From Microcystis elabens FACHB-917 (lineage in GTDB: Bacteria > Cyanobacteriota > Cyanobacteriia > PCC-6307 > Cyanobiaceae): DNA of 64,000 nucleotides. The notes below the pieces were generated by a model that was not told the origin of the DNA, made no database searches, and worked only from the letters and a program-made list of their open reading frames with translations. Of the stretch, positions 39,768 through 46,554 are shown in pieces; position 1 is the stretch's first letter; every line of letters starts with the position of its first letter. A program made the translations under genes and the position numbers. The DNA lies in contig NZ_JACJSZ010000007.1 in the NCBI RefSeq assembly GCF_014698445.1, positions 1 through 64,000 of the forward strand, in the 5' to 3' direction.

Positions 39768-41240
39768 TCAGTCGGCGAGAAAGAGGAGATTCATGAAGGT
39801 CATCCCGTTCCAGAGGGCGTGCATCAGCACGGCGCTTCCCAGCCGGCCGCTGCGCCAGCGCAGCCAGCCCAGGCCCAGGCCCAGCACGAACAGCGGGGCC
39901 AGCTCGCCAAGGCTGAGATGGGCGATCGCGAACACGGCCGCGCTCAGCACCACCGCGCCGGCTCCTCCGAGCCGCTGGCCTGCCACCGGCAGCAGCAGGC
40001 CCCGGAAGAGGAGCTCCTCGAACAGCGGGGCCACCACCAGGGCGGTGACGGCGAAACAGGCCAGGGCCAGTGGGTCGGCGCTGGTCAGCACGAGATCGAG
40101 CAGCGGATTGCTGCCCCCCGGATCGGCCCAGATCCGGTCGATCGCCCAGCTGGAGGCCGTCACCACCGGCAGCACCATGAGCAGGCTGGCCACGGCGCCG
40201 CCGAGGGCGGAACCGGCCGGTCGCCACCGCCACTGCAGCCAGCCCCCGGCCGGCGGCGTCGTGCGCCGCGGCAGCATCAGGGCCAGCAGCAGCAGGGGGG
40301 CGGCCATCAGGGCGGCGTAGAGCACCAGCACCTCGATGCCCTGGCTGAGGGCCCTTGGCGTCTCCAGCCGCTGCAGGGCCGCCTGCAGCGGCGGCTGCAC
40401 CACCATCGGCACGAAGACTTCCCCGAGCACGACGAAGCCGCCGGCGATCAGCAGGGTGACATCGACGGGGCTCAGGGGCGGCCCCACCAGCGGCGGTGCG
40501 GGGGCAAGACGGCCTCGCCACGCCAGCCAGCCCTGGCGCATCAGCAGGGCAGCCCCCACCAGCAGGAACAGGGCCGGCAGCGTGGTCACCGCCAGAAGCA
40601 TGAGCAGGAGCCGCAGCGAGCGCTCCTCCGCCGGACAGGCCCCCGGGTCCCCCGGCAGCTGTTCGCACACCAGCTGCTGCACCATCAGCGGGGCCGACCA
40701 GGGCGCGAGCAGCTGCTGCCGTTGCGCCGCCGTCACCGGCCGGCCCTCGAGCAGGGCCTGGATCAGGGGACGCCGCACGGCATCCACCTGGGTCGCCAGC
40801 TCCCTCAGACCGGTGTCGTCGTCCAGGAGCGTCGGTGTGCCGGCATCGCGCTCCAGCAGGGCGCGTTCGAGGCGGCGCAGGGCGAGCGGCGGCTCCTCGG
40901 CCGCCTCCATCTGTCGTCGCAGTTCATCGCCCAGCTCCCGGCGCGGGTCCTCCCCGACGAGCAGCGGCTGCAGCCCGTCCGGAACGGCCTCGGCCGTCAG
41001 GGCGGCCAGTTCGAGCTGCCGCAGGCTGAGGGAATCGACAACCGACGGCCGCTCGAGGCTGTCGATCAGTCCGCCCAGCCAGAGCAGGGCGCAGAGAGCC
41101 AGGCTGAGCAGGGTCAGCAGGCCCTTCCAGCCCGGGGGGGAGGCAGGGGGTCCGGATCGGGAAGGGGTTCCGTTCAACCGGACCACCTCGGCGGCGATGG
41201 GTGCTGATTCTCCCCCGCGCCCGTCCTCGGCCCGTCCCAT
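39768..41240 (-). CDS. CPBP-family intramembrane metalloprotease
   Basis: A 490-residue membrane protein of the CAAX protease/bacteriocin-processing (CPBP, Abi) family. Motif 1 is APLFEELLFRGLLLP, with the catalytic Glu pair and Arg. His residues follow in AIAHLSLGELAP and MHALWNGMTF. About 130 N-terminal extracytoplasmic residues (REL.DELRRQMEAAEE region) lie between the first helix and the core, larger than usual. I chose the ATG at 41240; a TTG at 41264 is also in frame. It is divergent from the histidine phosphatase gene and ends 6 bp before the FtsL-like gene. Confidence 0.87.
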   Translation of the reverse strand: MGRAEDGRGGESAPIAAEVVRLNGTPSRSGPPASPPGWKGLLTLLSLALCALLWLGGLIDSLERPSVVDSLSLRQLELAALTAEAVPDGLQPLLVGEDPRRELGDELRRQMEAAEEPPLALRRLERALLERDAGTPTLLDDDTGLRELATQVDAVRRPLIQALLEGRPVTAAQRQQLLAPWSAPLMVQQLVCEQLPGDPGACPAEERSLRLLLMLLAVTTLPALFLLVGAALLMRQGWLAWRGRLAPAPPLVGPPLSPVDVTLLIAGGFVVLGEVFVPMVVQPPLQAALQRLETPRALSQGIEVLVLYAALMAAPLLLLALMLPRRTTPPAGGWLQWRWRPAGSALGGAVASLLMVLPVVTASSWAIDRIWADPGGSNPLLDLVLTSADPLALACFAVTALVVAPLFEELLFRGLLLPVAGQRLGGAGAVVLSAAVFAIAHLSLGELAPLFVLGLGLGWLRWRSGRLGSAVLMHALWNGMTFMNLLFLAD

Positions 41241-41269
41241 ACGATGACCGGGCCTGCGCCACAAGCACC

Positions 41270-42595
41270 TTGCCCCTTCGCATCGTGCTGGTCCGCCATG
41301 GGCTGAGCAGCTTCAACCAGGAGCACCGCATCCAGGGCCGTGACGATCTCTCCGCCCTGACCGAGGCCGGCGAGGTGCAGGCCCGTCGCACGGGGGAGGC
41401 CCTGGCGGAGCTCCCGTTGGCCGCCGTCTACAGCTCGCCGCTGCGCCGGGCCAGCGCCACCACGGCCGCCCTGCTGGCCCGCCACGGCGCGGCGCCGGCG
41501 CCCGTGCTCGATGATGATCTCCTGGAGATCGACCTGGCCCCCTGGAGCGGTCTGCTGCGCAGCGAGGTGCGGGCCGTCGATCCCGAGCAGGAGCGCCGCT
41601 GGCGCGAGGCGCCGCAGACCCTGGAGCTGCGCCGCGCCGACGGCTCCACCTATCTTCCGGTGCCCGAGCTGATGGAGCAGGCGGGTCGTTTCGCCGATCG
41701 GCTGCTCGCCCGCCACGGCGACGACGACACCGTGCTGGTGGTGGCCCACAACGCCATCCTGCGCTGCCTGGTGCTGCACCTGCTGGGGCTGCCGGCAAGC
41801 GGCTTCCTGCGCCTCAGGCTCGACAACGCCTCCATCTCGGTGCTCAACCTGGTCCGCGGCGCGGGCGGGCGCCCCTCGGTCCAGCTGGAATCCCTCAACG
41901 GCACCGCCCACCTGGGCACGGCCCTGCCGCCGGCCGGTCCCGGATGCCGGTTGCTGCTGGTGCGCCACGGCGAGACCGACTGGAACCGGGAGGGCCGTTT
42001 CCAGGGCCAGATCGACATCCCCCTCAATGCCCACGGCCTGGCCCAGGCGGAGGCGGCGCGGGCCTTTCTGGCGCCGGTTCCGCTGCAGCGGGCCTACAGC
42101 AGCGACATGTCGCGCCCCCTGCGCACCGCCGAGGTGGTCCTGGGCTCCCACCCCGGCGTGCCGCTCACCGCCTGCAGGGGCCTGCGGGAGATCGGCCACG
42201 GACTCTGGGAGGGCCGCCTGGAGAGTGAGATCGCCGCCGGCTGGCCCGATCTGCTCGCCGCCTGGAAGCGCACCCCCGAGACCGTGCAGATGCCCGAGGG
42301 GGAGACGATCGGGGGGGTGTCGGAGCGCTCGCTGCAGGCCTGGAACCGGATCGTCGCCGGACTGGATCCCCAGGAGACGGTGCTGGTCGTCGCCCATGAT
42401 GCGGTCAACAAGACCATCCTCTGCGCCCTGCTCGGCCTCACCCCTGCCGACATCTGGGCCATCAAGCAGGGCAACGGAGGCGTGACCGTGATCGACTACC
42501 CCAGGGGGGCGACGGCTCCGCCGGTGGTCAGTGCCCTCAACCTCACCGCCCACCTGGGGGGTGTGATCGACCGCACGGCCGCCGGCGCCCTCTAG
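41270..42595 (+). CDS. Tandem histidine phosphatase (two phosphoglycerate-mutase-like domains)
   Basis: The 441-residue protein has two complete histidine-phosphatase domains. Domain 1 (about 1-215) has LVRHGLSSFNQEHRIQGRDD and LVVAHNAILRCL. Domain 2 (about 225-441) has LVRHGETDWNREGRFQGQID and LVVAHDAVNKTI. Both keep the phospho-His RHG and the second His. Such two-domain proteins occur in cyanobacteria; the substrate (phosphoserine, alpha-ribazole phosphate or sugar phosphate) cannot be decided here. Start TTG 41270 (PLRIVLVRHG) is chosen because the frame upstream is not conserved. Confidence 0.87.
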   Translation: MPLRIVLVRHGLSSFNQEHRIQGRDDLSALTEAGEVQARRTGEALAELPLAAVYSSPLRRASATTAALLARHGAAPAPVLDDDLLEIDLAPWSGLLRSEVRAVDPEQERRWREAPQTLELRRADGSTYLPVPELMEQAGRFADRLLARHGDDDTVLVVAHNAILRCLVLHLLGLPASGFLRLRLDNASISVLNLVRGAGGRPSVQLESLNGTAHLGTALPPAGPGCRLLLVRHGETDWNREGRFQGQIDIPLNAHGLAQAEAARAFLAPVPLQRAYSSDMSRPLRTAEVVLGSHPGVPLTACRGLREIGHGLWEGRLESEIAAGWPDLLAAWKRTPETVQMPEGETIGGVSERSLQAWNRIVAGLDPQETVLVVAHDAVNKTILCALLGLTPADIWAIKQGNGGVTVIDYPRGATAPPVVSALNLTAHLGGVIDRTAAGAL

Positions 42596-42622
42596 CCGGC
42601 CCATCCCTCCGAGGCCCCTGCC

Positions 42623-43903
42623 ATGGTCCGTCAGCTGCTGCTCCGCGGGGTGATCCTGCTGGAGGCCCCGCAGCGGCCGCCTCGGCGGGCCGACGTGCTC
42701 CTGGAGGGCGGGGTGCTTCGGGCTGTCGACCCGGAGCCGGATGCGGTCTCCGGGGGCGACGTCGCCGGCTTCGAGGCCGAGGGCTGCTGGCTGGGGCCGG
42801 CACTGGTGGACCCCCACAGCGTGCTGGAGGATCCGCTGCAGGGGCGGGCCGAAACCCTGGCCAGTCTCCGGGAGGCCGCCGCCTCAGGCGGCTACGGCAC
42901 CGTGGCCCTGCTCCCCTGGGCCCCCAGCTGGCGCGACCGGCCGGAGCGGCTGGACTGGAGCTGGCCGGACCCCATGCGGCTGCTCACCTGGGGCAGCTTC
43001 AGCGTCGATGGCCTCGATCGGGAGCTGGCTCCCCACGCCGACCAGCTGGCCGCCGGCGCCTGCGGTCTGGCGGCCGGAGCGGCCCTGCCGCCGCTCGACC
43101 TGCTCGAGCGCGGCCTTCGCCTCGGGGAGATGGGCGATCGGCCAGTGCTGCTGCCGCCCCGGGATGGGTCCCTGGCCAGGCGCGGGTTCGTGCGGGAGCG
43201 GGTGGAGGCCCTGCGGGCGGGCTGGCCCCTCGATCCCGCCGGCAGCGAGACCCTCCCCCTCGAGACCCTGCTCTTCCTGGCCGACGACCTCCCCTCCCCG
43301 GGGCTGCGGCTGATGAATGTCTCCACGGCCGACGCGGTGGCCCGGCTGCGGCGCCACGGCCGTCCACCGATGGCCTCGGTGGGATGGTGGCATCTGGTCG
43401 CCGACAGCGGCGGCCTCGATCCGGCCGACGAGGGCTGGCTGGTGGAGCCGTCCCTGGGGGGACCGGCCGATCGGCAGGCTCTGATCGATGGCCTGGCCGA
43501 CGGGGTCATCACCGGGGTGGCGGTGCACCACATCGCCCTGGATGCGGAGGAGGAGCTGCTGCCTCTCGATCAGCGCCGGCCCGGGGTGGCGGGCCACGGC
43601 CTGGTGCTGCCCCTGCTGTGGGAGGAACTGGTGGGACGCCGGGGCTGGCGGCCGGAGCAGCTCTGGCAGGTGCTCTGCTGGGGGCCCGCCCGCTTCCTGG
43701 GCCTGCCGGAGCCGCTGCTGACCGCCGGCACGGGTCGGTGGCTGCTGTTCGATCCCCGCCGCCCCTGGCGCTGGGAGGATGCCCCCTCCGGCTCCCTGGC
43801 CGCCAACCGTCCCTGCCGCGGGCGGCTGCTGCAGGGACGGGTGCTGGCCTGCGGCCTCAGCGATCCGGCGCGTTGGGCTCTGGCAGGGGACCGGCTGAGC
43901 TGA
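42623..43903 (+). CDS. Dihydroorotase-like protein lacking the catalytic residues (pseudo-DHOase)
   Basis: The 426-residue amidohydrolase-fold protein keeps the DHOase layout: an N-terminal LLLRGVILLEA strand region, GPALVDPHSVLEDP in place of the D-x-H-x-H motif, SLGGPADRQALIDGLADGVI, and VAVHHIALDAEEE where active enzymes have TDHAPH. The second His of HxH is Val, the motif-4 Asp is missing, and the whole protein has no lysine, so no carbamylated Lys can bridge metals. It is probably inactive as a hydrolase and may be a structural partner of aspartate carbamoyltransferase, as for other pseudo-DHOases (inference). It ends overlapping convergent lepB by 47 bp. Confidence 0.83.
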   Translation: MVRQLLLRGVILLEAPQRPPRRADVLLEGGVLRAVDPEPDAVSGGDVAGFEAEGCWLGPALVDPHSVLEDPLQGRAETLASLREAAASGGYGTVALLPWAPSWRDRPERLDWSWPDPMRLLTWGSFSVDGLDRELAPHADQLAAGACGLAAGAALPPLDLLERGLRLGEMGDRPVLLPPRDGSLARRGFVRERVEALRAGWPLDPAGSETLPLETLLFLADDLPSPGLRLMNVSTADAVARLRRHGRPPMASVGWWHLVADSGGLDPADEGWLVEPSLGGPADRQALIDGLADGVITGVAVHHIALDAEEELLPLDQRRPGVAGHGLVLPLLWEELVGRRGWRPEQLWQVLCWGPARFLGLPEPLLTAGTGRWLLFDPRRPWRWEDAPSGSLAANRPCRGRLLQGRVLACGLSDPARWALAGDRLS

Positions 43904-44648
43904 AGGGGAAGAAGCGCCAGAAGGCCCGGCCGATCAGTTCGGACTCCGGCAGCAGCGGCCCACCGGGCCAGAAGCGGGCATCCCAGCTGTTGGCCCTGTT
44001 GTCGCCCATCACCACCAGGTGGCCGGGGGGGACCACCACGTCGATGGTGCGGCAGGGGCCGACCCCCTGCCGGTCGACGGGGCAGTAGTTCCTGACGTAG
44101 GGCTCATCGAGGGGCCGGCCGTTGATGCTGACCCGGCCACGGGGGTCGGCCACCACCCGCTCGCCGGGCAGGCCGATCACCCGCTTGATGTACGCATCGC
44201 AGGCCGGCTGCTGGATGCCGGGCAGGGAACCGATCAGGGGCAGGTTGACCAGCAGGCAGCGCAGCGCCCCCGGCTTGGTCGGGCCGGTGAGGATCGAATC
44301 GAAGTGGTAAGGGGAGCGGAACACCACCACCTCGCCGCGCCGCGGCCGGCGCTGGCGGAAGGACAGCTTCTCCACCAGCAGCCGGTCCTGGAGCTGGAGC
44401 CCCGGAAGCATGGAGCCGGAAGGGATGTAGCGGGCCTCCAGCAGGAACTGGCGGATGCCCAGGGCCACCGCCAGGGTGATCAGGACGCTGCGCCAGAAAG
44501 CCCAGGGGCTCTCCTCCCGCTCTTCCTGGCGACGCTGTGGCCCCGGCGGGGGCGTCGGCTCGTCGTGGGCGCCGTGGTCGGCCGGTGGATCCGAGGGGCT
44601 CAAGGGGTTCGTGCGGCAGGTTCCATGGTCGGGAGGCAGATTAGGCAC
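43857..44648 (-). CDS. lepB: Signal peptidase I
   Basis: LepB removes signal peptides of secreted and thylakoid proteins. It has one N-terminal helix (SVLITLAVALGIRQFLLEARY), the catalytic Ser in YIPSGSMLPGLQ, the catalytic Lys in DAYIKRVIGLPGERV, and VVMGDNRANSWDARFWPGG. I chose the GTG at 44648 (263 residues), which leaves a short gap to the divergent gene starting at 44672. GTG 44678 and 44684 are in-frame alternatives that would overlap that gene; no ATG is available. A Pro/Arg-rich stretch precedes the helix. Confidence 0.92.
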   Translation of the reverse strand: MPNLPPDHGTCRTNPLSPSDPPADHGAHDEPTPPPGPQRRQEEREESPWAFWRSVLITLAVALGIRQFLLEARYIPSGSMLPGLQLQDRLLVEKLSFRQRRPRRGEVVVFRSPYHFDSILTGPTKPGALRCLLVNLPLIGSLPGIQQPACDAYIKRVIGLPGERVVADPRGRVSINGRPLDEPYVRNYCPVDRQGVGPCRTIDVVVPPGHLVVMGDNRANSWDARFWPGGPLLPESELIGRAFWRFFPFSSAGPLPEPNAPDR

Positions 44649-44671
44649 GCATCCGCCCGCCGCGTCCCCCG

Positions 44672-46189
44672 ATGGCACGCCCACGCTGGCACCAGAGCCT
44701 GGCCGTGCCCTCGAGCCGGCTGGGGAGGCGCTGGGATCGCTTCGTGGCGCTCTGGGCCGCCCTCAACCTGATCTGGGTGGCCTTCGACATCAGCTACATT
44801 CCCCTGCGCACCTTCTGGCTGCAGCGCAACCTCTACCCGCTGCCGTCGGTGCCCCTGGCGGTGCCGCTCACCATCATCCCCGACATCACCCCCTGGGTGG
44901 ATCCGATCAAGGGGATCGAGCCGCACCGCGAGACCCAGGCCTACCTGCGCCAGTTCGACCGCCTGGATGCAGCCCTGAGCCAGGGCCCAACGGGAGGCGT
45001 CACCCCGATCCAGCGCCAGCTGCTGGCGGAGCAGGTGCGGCTCACCGTCGAGATGATCGATTCCAACCCGATGCAGGCCTCGGGCACCTACGGCACCCTG
45101 GAGAAGATCAAGAACCGCCTGCGCCAGCGGGCCGACCGGGACTCGGCCAAGCAGGCGGCGGCGGTGCTGCTGAGTCCGGCCTGGATCGACGCCCACCCCT
45201 GGCCGCGGGAACGGCTGTTCTGGCGCCAGCAGGTCCTGCCCCTGGTGGCCACCACCTACTGGCGCTCGATCGATGAGAACGGCCGCCCCACCGACCACTT
45301 CTGGCGCTATGACCTGCTCCTGTTCCAGAGCGTCTTCGCCCTCGACATCCTGCTGCGGGCCATCCGCCTGCGGCGCCGCCTGCCGGGCCTGAGCTGGGGC
45401 CGGGCCCTGCTGCGGCGCTGGATCGATCTGCCCCTGCTGCTGCCCTTCTGGCGCTGGCTGCGGGTGGTGCCGGTGCTGGAGCGGCTCCACACCAGCGGGC
45501 TGATCACCATCGAACCGCTGCGGGCGGTCATCAGCCGGGCGGTGGTGGCCCTGCTGGCGGTGGAGCTGTTCGAGGTGCTCGCGCTGCAGCTGATCGACGG
45601 GCTGCAGCAGCTGATCCGCTCCCGCCGCTGGCCGATGCGGATCCGCGCGCTCCGCAGCCATCAGATGGTGGTCAGCAACGACGAGCGTGAGCTGGTGGAG
45701 CTGGTGCGGATCTGGGGGCCCCTGCTGCTGGTGCAGGTGGCCCCGCGCCTCGCCCCCGAACTTCAGGGGGTGCTCGGCCATGCCCTGCAGCAGAGTCTGC
45801 AGAACACGATCGTGCCGCCGGGCCTCCGCCAGCTCCAGCCCCTGCTCCAGGTGGAGAAGGGGCTCAGCCGCCAGCTGGCCGGGGGGATGGTGGAGAGCCT
45901 GCTGGACCTCACCCGCACCACCGGCGAGCGCCTCAGCCGCCGCGATGACCAGCAGCTGGAGCTGCTGCAGCGCTGCATCGACCGTTTCTGGGAGGAGCTG
46001 GCCGATGCGCTGGAGACCGGCCCGGCCCTGGAACGCTCCCAGCAGCTGCTGTGCACCTTCCTCGAGGAGTTCAAGGGCAACTACCTGAGCCAGATCAGCC
46101 GGGCCGGCATCGAAGGGCTGATCGAGGAGCTCGACCTGCTGATGGTCAAGGGAGGCCAGGGGCCCCAGGAGCGGAACGACGGGACCTAG
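44672..46189 (+). CDS. Conserved hypothetical membrane protein
   Basis: A 505-residue protein starting MARPRWHQSLAVPSSRL. Hydrophobic segments are at about residues 27-45, 205-225 and 250-300, with a basic, Leu-rich loop between (LLRAIRLRRRLPGLSWG, then LLRRWIDLPLLLPFWRWLRV). The RWLRVVPVLERLHTSG region recalls the voltage-sensor or linker helices of ion channels, but no pore motif is visible. The C-terminal third is a long helical soluble region (VQVAPRLAPELQGVLGHALQ). I cannot assign a function. It is divergent from lepB and overlaps the end of the Spx-like gene by 4 bp. Confidence 0.8.
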   Translation: MARPRWHQSLAVPSSRLGRRWDRFVALWAALNLIWVAFDISYIPLRTFWLQRNLYPLPSVPLAVPLTIIPDITPWVDPIKGIEPHRETQAYLRQFDRLDAALSQGPTGGVTPIQRQLLAEQVRLTVEMIDSNPMQASGTYGTLEKIKNRLRQRADRDSAKQAAAVLLSPAWIDAHPWPRERLFWRQQVLPLVATTYWRSIDENGRPTDHFWRYDLLLFQSVFALDILLRAIRLRRRLPGLSWGRALLRRWIDLPLLLPFWRWLRVVPVLERLHTSGLITIEPLRAVISRAVVALLAVELFEVLALQLIDGLQQLIRSRRWPMRIRALRSHQMVVSNDERELVELVRIWGPLLLVQVAPRLAPELQGVLGHALQQSLQNTIVPPGLRQLQPLLQVEKGLSRQLAGGMVESLLDLTRTTGERLSRRDDQQLELLQRCIDRFWEELADALETGPALERSQQLLCTFLEEFKGNYLSQISRAGIEGLIEELDLLMVKGGQGPQERNDGT

Positions 46190-46554
46190 CCCACCAGCTC
46201 CTGCCACTCCTCGGGCCGGAACCCGGTGAGGATGCGCCCGTTGCCGCTGACCAGGAAGGGCCGCTTGATCAGGCGCCCGTCAGCCGCCAGGGCGGCCAGG
46301 GCCGTGGCTCTGTCCATCGCCTTGACGGTGGCGGCCCCCAGGGCCCGGTAGCTCTGGCCGCTGGTGTTGAACAGCCGGCCGAAGCCCCCCAGCTGGTCGT
46401 GGGCCGCGGCCAGCAGCTCCAGGGGCGGCGGGCTGGTGGTGATGTCGATGGTGTCGAAGGGAATCTGCCGTTCCCTTAGCCAGGCCAGCGCCTTGCGGCA
46501 GGTGCCGCAGCCGGGGTACTGGTAGAGGAGGTGCCTGGCCCGGTTGACGGCCAT
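46186..46554 (-). CDS. Spx/ArsC-family (thioredoxin-fold) protein
   Basis: The 122-residue protein has the CxxC in YQYPGCGTCRKALAWLRE, FDTIDITTSPP, FNTSGQSYRALG and IKRPFLVSGNGRILTGF. This is the pattern of the Spx/MgsR/YffB group rather than a confirmed arsenate reductase. It may be a redox or transcription-linked regulator. ATG start at 46554. It follows the ferredoxin gene by 5 bp in the same direction, which hints at a shared redox role. Confidence 0.87.
   Translation of the reverse strand: MAVNRARHLLYQYPGCGTCRKALAWLRERQIPFDTIDITTSPPPLELLAAAHDQLGGFGRLFNTSGQSYRALGAATVKAMDRATALAALAADGRLIKRPFLVSGNGRILTGFRPEEWQELVG

Follow-up and report, generated by a model that had tools for sequence, protein, structure and literature searches.

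A diverged class I dihydroorotase homologue of photosynthetic cyanobacteria as a candidate non-catalytic partner of aspartate carbamoyltransferase

The locus and its degenerate active site

The window (the whole stretch of DNA that was analysed, 64,000 nucleotides) carries an open frame at 42623-43903 (+) whose product has 426 residues followed by a stop, with 44 arginines and no lysine. The features of the locus are listed below.

41201..42595, + strand: upstream gene (PGAM2) with two histidine phosphatase domains (His_Phos_1 in two stretches, E 4.5e-100)
42623..43903, + strand: predicted pseudo-dihydroorotase (pseudo-DHOase) gene, 426 amino acids without lysine, recognised by translation, the NF005614 match, alignment and an AlphaFold2 model
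42809..42823, + strand: D-P-H-S-V, the former D-x-H-x-H metal motif (residues 63-67), first His kept, second replaced by Val
43526..43531, + strand: H-H (residues 302-303), the former D-H of motif 4 (TDHAPH), the Asp305 equivalent being His
43857..44684, - strand: downstream, convergent signal peptidase I gene (Peptidase_S26), assigned by Pfam match and synteny and marking the other edge of the site

The phosphatase stop is separated from the start of the pseudo-DHOase gene by 27 bases, and the 3' end of the latter is overlapped by the convergent signal peptidase I gene, presumably lepB. A 505-residue frame without a Pfam match (44672-46189, +) adjoins the signal peptidase gene, and a similar-sized conserved frame occupies this place in several loci of the family that we take to be Cyanobiaceae (f1), the named relatives in which include Cyanobium, Synechococcus and Prochlorococcus. 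Genes around the loci were called by ORF conservation and not by a gene finder.

The protein matched the NCBIfam dihydroorotase model NF005614 over residues 5-409 (E 8e-74) with 248.9 bits, which is below the curated cut-off of 456 bits, and it was also matched by general DHOase models. No DHOase match was returned by a Pfam-A search of the protein; PF01979 was found in two places in its own genome, urease alpha and class II PyrC, with the pseudo-DHOase gene undetected; and Rfam gave nothing at gathering thresholds over 40000-46500. In the 13 nearest relatives (77-91% identity) the frame is likewise open and the site is of the same dead type, so nothing in the sequences points to a sequencing error as the cause of the odd site.

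A sequence-only reading of this stretch had described a dihydroorotase layout that has lost its catalytic residues. Homology to class I DHOase does run along the whole protein, D-P-H-S-V and VAVHHIA are present as read, and most of the other ligands are replaced as well, with the refinement that the first His of the D-x-H-x-H pair is retained (His65). Ligands were mapped using the numbering of the Aquifex type I DHOase (His61, His63, Asp153, His180, His232, Asp305). Where an active class I DHOase requires the HxH alpha-metal ligands together with Asp153 and Asp305, the window protein has His65 (kept), Val67, Ala151 and His302; the required His180 and His232 correspond to Pro178 and Asn232. Two further positions, Arg65 and the Arg of NPPLR, are Glu69 and Gly279, respectively. 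Replacement of His180 and His232 was reported to leave catalysis of the Aquifex enzyme unaffected (PMC3880350), so the loss of these two residues alone is not decisive.

The predicted model has the fold required of a class I DHOase. AlphaFold2 supplied with 82 family sequences gave a pLDDT of 94.4, and the closest solved fold was the Thermus DHOase 2z00 (Z 47.0, rmsd 2.6 over 410 residues). The Aquifex aeolicus type I DHOase, taken from its complex with aspartate carbamoyltransferase (ATCase; 3d6n, 4bjh), shares this fold with Z scores of 45.2-45.4 (4bjh 45.4) over 409-410 residues at 22% identity; it is, however, described as an active enzyme with a single zinc and complete ligands (PMC3880350), whereas the window protein lacks most of these ligands. 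None of the matches listed in PDB sequence searches (the best 60 of 79 in one search) was named a pseudo-DHOase. By its sequence, the window protein is a real pseudoenzyme.

The family in cyanobacteria and the enzymes of the DHOase reaction

A family match was found in 60/60 genomes first searched, own genome counted, and the pseudo-DHOase was present in 103 of the 109 genomes of the same class, which we take to be Cyanobacteriia, in a phylum-wide draw of 234. All 82 clade members scanned matched NF005614 / PRK07369 at E 1e-5 or better, and the window protein would be placed as a diverged relative inside the clade matching NF005614 and not as a formal member of that family. The copies were aligned as 96 from Cyanobiaceae and 57 from other cyanobacteria (138 distinct sequences, 84 and 54, with some genomes represented twice). 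Not one of the 153 aligned copies retained both motif histidines, His180, His232 or the NPPLR Arg, and Arg65 was gone in 152; in non-photosynthetic relatives, 7/7 active-type class I enzymes retain every one of these residues. In a quick tree a branch with SH-aLRT 100 separated all 52 pseudo-DHOases from seven active-type class I and three QxH enzymes. This tree carries a long-branch warning, and the nesting of Cyanobiaceae inside the other pseudo-DHOases is unsafe.

The first motif His (residue 65) was kept in all 96 Cyanobiaceae copies and is Tyr in 55/57 other cyanobacterial copies. This may be a reversal from Tyr to His or a misplaced long branch, and the apparent reversal is unsafe. The position of His303 is His in 85/96 Cyanobiaceae copies. 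The family is under purifying selection, with dN/dS of 0.20-0.33 in 11 comparisons, and 12 columns were invariant across 82 sequences. Joint transfer of pseudo-DHOase and PyrB, suspected in two genomes (G129 and G145) from high general-model scores, was dropped when both trees placed these beside other genomes of their group (f27); branch lengths were not taken from this PyrB tree, which contained an untrimmed row for the window and a very long outgroup row.

A second DHOase, the absence of which would have told against the sequence-only reading, was found in the genome of the window as a complete class II PyrC (TIGR00856, 440.8 bits, over cut-off) with the HVH, Lys, His, His and Asp motifs (HVH, the CKLYPA lysine, IHGE, EHIT and TDSAPH). 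PyrB (286.8 bits) was likewise over its cut-off. Across the class another DHOase was found in 108/109 genomes. It was of class II in 22/22 Cyanobiaceae genomes and, among the 87 genomes outside this family, 70 had only the QxH type (NF005751), 15 had only class II, one had both (G245) and one had neither (G183); the QxH match of G234 contains stops. Across the class, then, one type of DHOase has been swapped for another with the pseudo-DHOase retained, which we regard as good evidence that the pseudo-DHOase does not supply the activity. Clade-wide loss of metal and substrate residues, a near-constant other DHOase, purifying selection and a predicted ordered DHOase fold were all observed together in this family.

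The two exceptional genomes deserve separate description. In G183, neither a QxH DHOase nor a class II PyrC was found and the pseudo-DHOase has no ligands; the absence may reflect an assembly gap or another enzyme. In G245, the pseudo-DHOase lies near a partial QxH match with an internal stop (contig C79, 228516-231696) and a class II PyrC is also present in the genome, which may be a DHOase replacement in progress. In 12/12 sequences of the QxH DHOases themselves (PRK07575, loci L174-L185), the first motif His is replaced by Gln and the Asp153 column is occupied by His.

No paper on a cyanobacterial pseudo-DHOase appeared among the matches listed in the open-access literature. Pseudo-DHOases as a kind are already known; the cyanobacterial set is new.

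Lysine content and base composition

The sequence-only reading had also pointed to a total lack of lysine, and 0 Lys in 426 residues was confirmed. It had treated this as a mark of lost catalysis, which did not hold: the carboxylated Lys belongs to class II and CAD DHOases, and type I DHOases are reported to have Asp153 in its place (PMC3880350), so a missing lysine is uninformative on catalysis.

Neighbouring genes in the window average 1.4% Lys, from which about six would be expected in the pseudo-DHOase; the probability of none is 0.0026 for one protein, which could still be luck among all proteins of a genome. The lack of lysine is, however, systematic, as it recurs in 40/95 full-length Cyanobiaceae copies (31/83 distinct sequences). 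The composition effect suggested as an explanation stood up when close homologues were compared, with Lys tracking base composition across orthologues. Nine Prochlorococcus orthologues (GC 0.35-0.44) contain 23-39 Lys (5.4-9.2%; their neighbours 5.1-8.1%), and copies in loci of GC > 0.6 contain 0-4. The comparison with neighbours covered 64 loci, each with at least 350 aligned query residues and at least five neighbour genes. A drop in lysine use with genomic GC has been reported in eight bacterial groups (PMC3053387).

Among 12 gene families around the locus, K/R fell with GC most steeply in the pseudo-DHOase (-14.2; next -9.1). In loci above 65% GC it had the lowest Lys of the 12 (0.20%), and 23/50 copies were lysine-free, with no lysine-free copy in the other 11 families. 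There were 23 lysine-free genes among 316 genes of at least 400 amino acids and 22 of these 23 were pseudo-DHOase; two other lysine-free genes of at least 250 residues occurred in those loci. Lys never exceeded 15% in any alignment column of the 96 Cyanobiaceae copies, and an EEK-motif lysine was kept in 57/57 other cyanobacterial copies.

Such depletion at high GC is what might be expected if the absence of lysine had been selected, e.g., to avoid carbamylation near carbamoyl phosphate. The AT-rich Prochlorococcus orthologues are, however, as lysine-rich as their neighbours, by which this reading is already largely refuted, and the steep fall in K/R is expected if function fixes no lysine; we therefore regard such selection as barely credible. 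The lack of lysine results mainly from base composition (~71% GC) in a protein that requires no lysine. At high GC the pseudo-DHOase is genuinely more depleted than its neighbours, as would fit a lack of constraint, and some selection on lysine could still contribute there.

Relation to PyrB and the role of the pseudo-DHOase

PyrB was present in 109/109 genomes of the class. A position beside pyrB is usual for pseudo-DHOase genes, although not strictly defining, and was not found here, with pyrB on contig C59 and the pseudo-DHOase on contig C89. The active-type gene adjoins pyrB in non-photosynthetic relatives (e.g., G246, G239, G276, G278). Pseudo-DHOase, signal peptidase and QxH DHOase are neighbours in 2/10 named loci outside Cyanobiaceae (Leptolyngbya and Hormoscilla), the Leptolyngbya order being phosphatase, pseudo-DHOase, signal peptidase, QxH DHOase. 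The Cyanobiaceae stem of the pseudo-DHOase is 1.75 changes per site long. Expressed relative to the outgroup crown, this stem was 3.21 for the pseudo-DHOase, 3.23 for PyrB and 2.03 for ornithine carbamoyltransferase (OTC), a PyrB paralogue that served as the single control gene.

Two known systems provide precedents. The Pseudomonas PyrC', a class A2 ATCase subunit, is likewise a class I homologue that lacks the metal ligands and coexists with a separate DHOase and a PyrB. Two characters of the class A2 (PyrC'/PyrX) type are found here: a full-length class I homologue devoid of metal ligands, and a separate complete DHOase and PyrB in the genome. The P. aeruginosa ATCase chain is described as a monomer that is inactive until it assembles with the pseudo-DHOase into a dodecamer (PMC7053772). 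That complex was shown biochemically (PMC7053772), whereas the window protein is a candidate partner whose gene does not lie beside pyrB, and one cyanobacterial lineage, in contrast, lives without its pseudo-DHOase. The Sinorhizobium meliloti PyrX is also a proposed pseudo-DHOase, with an essential PyrC elsewhere in the genome. It adjoins pyrB, unlike the window gene, and disruption of its gene, smc01361 (proposed pyrX), was reported to cause pyrimidine auxotrophy (PMC5929573). By analogy with these two precedents, holding or tuning PyrB is the most likely role of the cyanobacterial protein. Of the earlier suggestion that this is a pseudo-DHOase stabilising PyrB, the lost residues and the separate complete DHOase were confirmed; the partner role is indicated by analogy and indirect evidence.

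The pseudo-DHOase was absent from six of the seven genomes of one group (g25), which we take to be Prochlorococcus-like; these six kept PyrB and class II PyrC (loci L303, L304 and L306-L309), and no pseudo-DHOase was found in them with the family profile, the general DHOase model or a Prochlorococcus query. They are 1.6-1.7 Mb in size with a locus GC of ~0.29, and two are single contigs. In these six, the signal peptidase comes within ~60 bases after the phosphatase at the syntenic site, a clean loss; the pseudo-DHOase is present there in the seventh genome (G265) and in four genomes from other groups. The six formed one clade with G265 as sister in the phosphatase and PyrB trees, but not in the OTC tree.

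PyrB accumulated 0.226 changes per site on the loss branch compared to 0.100 on the sister branch, a ratio of 2.20 and the second highest of 13 genes. The 12 control genes pooled had 623 to 652 changes; the Fisher test of PyrB against them gave p 4e-5, a value that is too small as the controls scatter. The phosphatase was not accelerated (ratio 0.71). Five of 101 PyrB sites that are invariant in 16 genomes with the pseudo-DHOase were changed in all six, compared to 0/94 for OTC (Fisher p 0.035 one-sided, 0.060 two-sided), and one of the five is an Arg to Lys change in STRTR (STRTK in the six). When a change in at least one of the six sufficed, the counts were 6/101 for PyrB and 5/94 for OTC. 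Using a 61-genome reference, 4/85 PyrB sites were changed in all six, and the sister G265, in which the gene is present, differed at 2/97 PyrB and 1/90 OTC sites that are invariant elsewhere. The fast change of PyrB on this branch is suggestive and would fit the loss of a PyrB partner. The six genomes show that strict dependence on the pseudo-DHOase is not universal and that any such dependence can be escaped. One neighbouring gene, presumably pyrophosphatase-like (L310-L316), changed faster than PyrB on the same branch (ratio 2.68, 0.471 changes per site).

We consider it probable, largely by analogy, that the window gene encodes a catalytically dead class I DHOase, from a clade that has become fixed among photosynthetic cyanobacteria, and that this protein is kept as a non-catalytic partner of PyrB. 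The pseudo-DHOase would act as a scaffold, stabiliser or regulator of PyrB, the trimers of which would probably be held in a larger PyrB-pseudo-DHOase complex. The ancestor would have been an active class I DHOase paired with PyrB. Along the stem of the cyanobacterial class it would have lost catalysis when the reaction had been taken over by a QxH DHOase (PRK07575) and, in places, a class II PyrC. One Prochlorococcus-like lineage would later have dropped the subunit while its PyrB changed.

An unlikely but serious alternative is that the pseudoenzyme acts elsewhere than in ATCase, for example as a partner of the histidine phosphatase or as a regulator binding a pyrimidine or carbamoyl-aspartate in the dead pocket. 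It is favoured by the co-directional phosphatase gene ending 27 bases upstream, by the phosphatase motif in 67/70 Cyanobiaceae and 5/10 other loci (contig ends included) and by the distance from pyrB in the genome itself. The phosphatase was, however, retained at an unaccelerated rate (0.71) in the six genomes lacking the pseudo-DHOase, and both the operon partners of the active-type relatives and the neighbouring QxH DHOase indicate pyrimidine synthesis. It is less probable still that the protein is an unusual active DHOase, or a related amidohydrolase, able to dispense with the classical metal site, perhaps when zinc is scarce. Loss of metal ligands need not abolish activity, since activity is reported for a Zur-regulated PyrC paralogue, present in Pseudomonas and others, in which the zinc residues are missing (PMC2770081, citing its reference 84), and here the barrel is predicted intact with His65 in 96/96 and a His at the 303 position in 85/96 Cyanobiaceae copies. 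Against such activity, His180, His232 and the NPPLR Arg are missing from every aligned copy and Arg65 from all but one, and 108/109 genomes have another DHOase.

Decay of a functionless gene would account for the very long Cyanobiaceae stem, the absence of any conserved lysine and the clean loss in one lineage, but we judge it very improbable in this family. The dN/dS of 0.20-0.33, the open frames of the relatives, the high-confidence fold from the family alignment, the 12 invariant columns across 82 sequences and the persistence of the gene in small genomes (e.g., G189, G265) all speak against decay.

In cyanobacteria, QxH-type or class II enzymes carry out the third step of pyrimidine synthesis. 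The NCBI model name 'dihydroorotase' implies for the cyanobacterial family an activity that its sequences do not support and is probably wrong in these organisms. A striking composition such as 426 residues without lysine can come from base composition when no lysine is required. ATCase in cyanobacteria may be a pseudoenzyme complex, and dependence of PyrB on its partner can be tested by comparing the natural PyrBs of the six gene-free genomes. More tentatively, nearly all photosynthetic cyanobacteria might run pyrimidine synthesis on an ATCase complex containing a dead class I DHOase, with other DHOases supplying the reaction, from which one Prochlorococcus lineage escaped by deleting the subunit and remodelling PyrB. 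If true, this would be a natural before-and-after experiment on an enzyme freeing itself of a pseudoenzyme partner.
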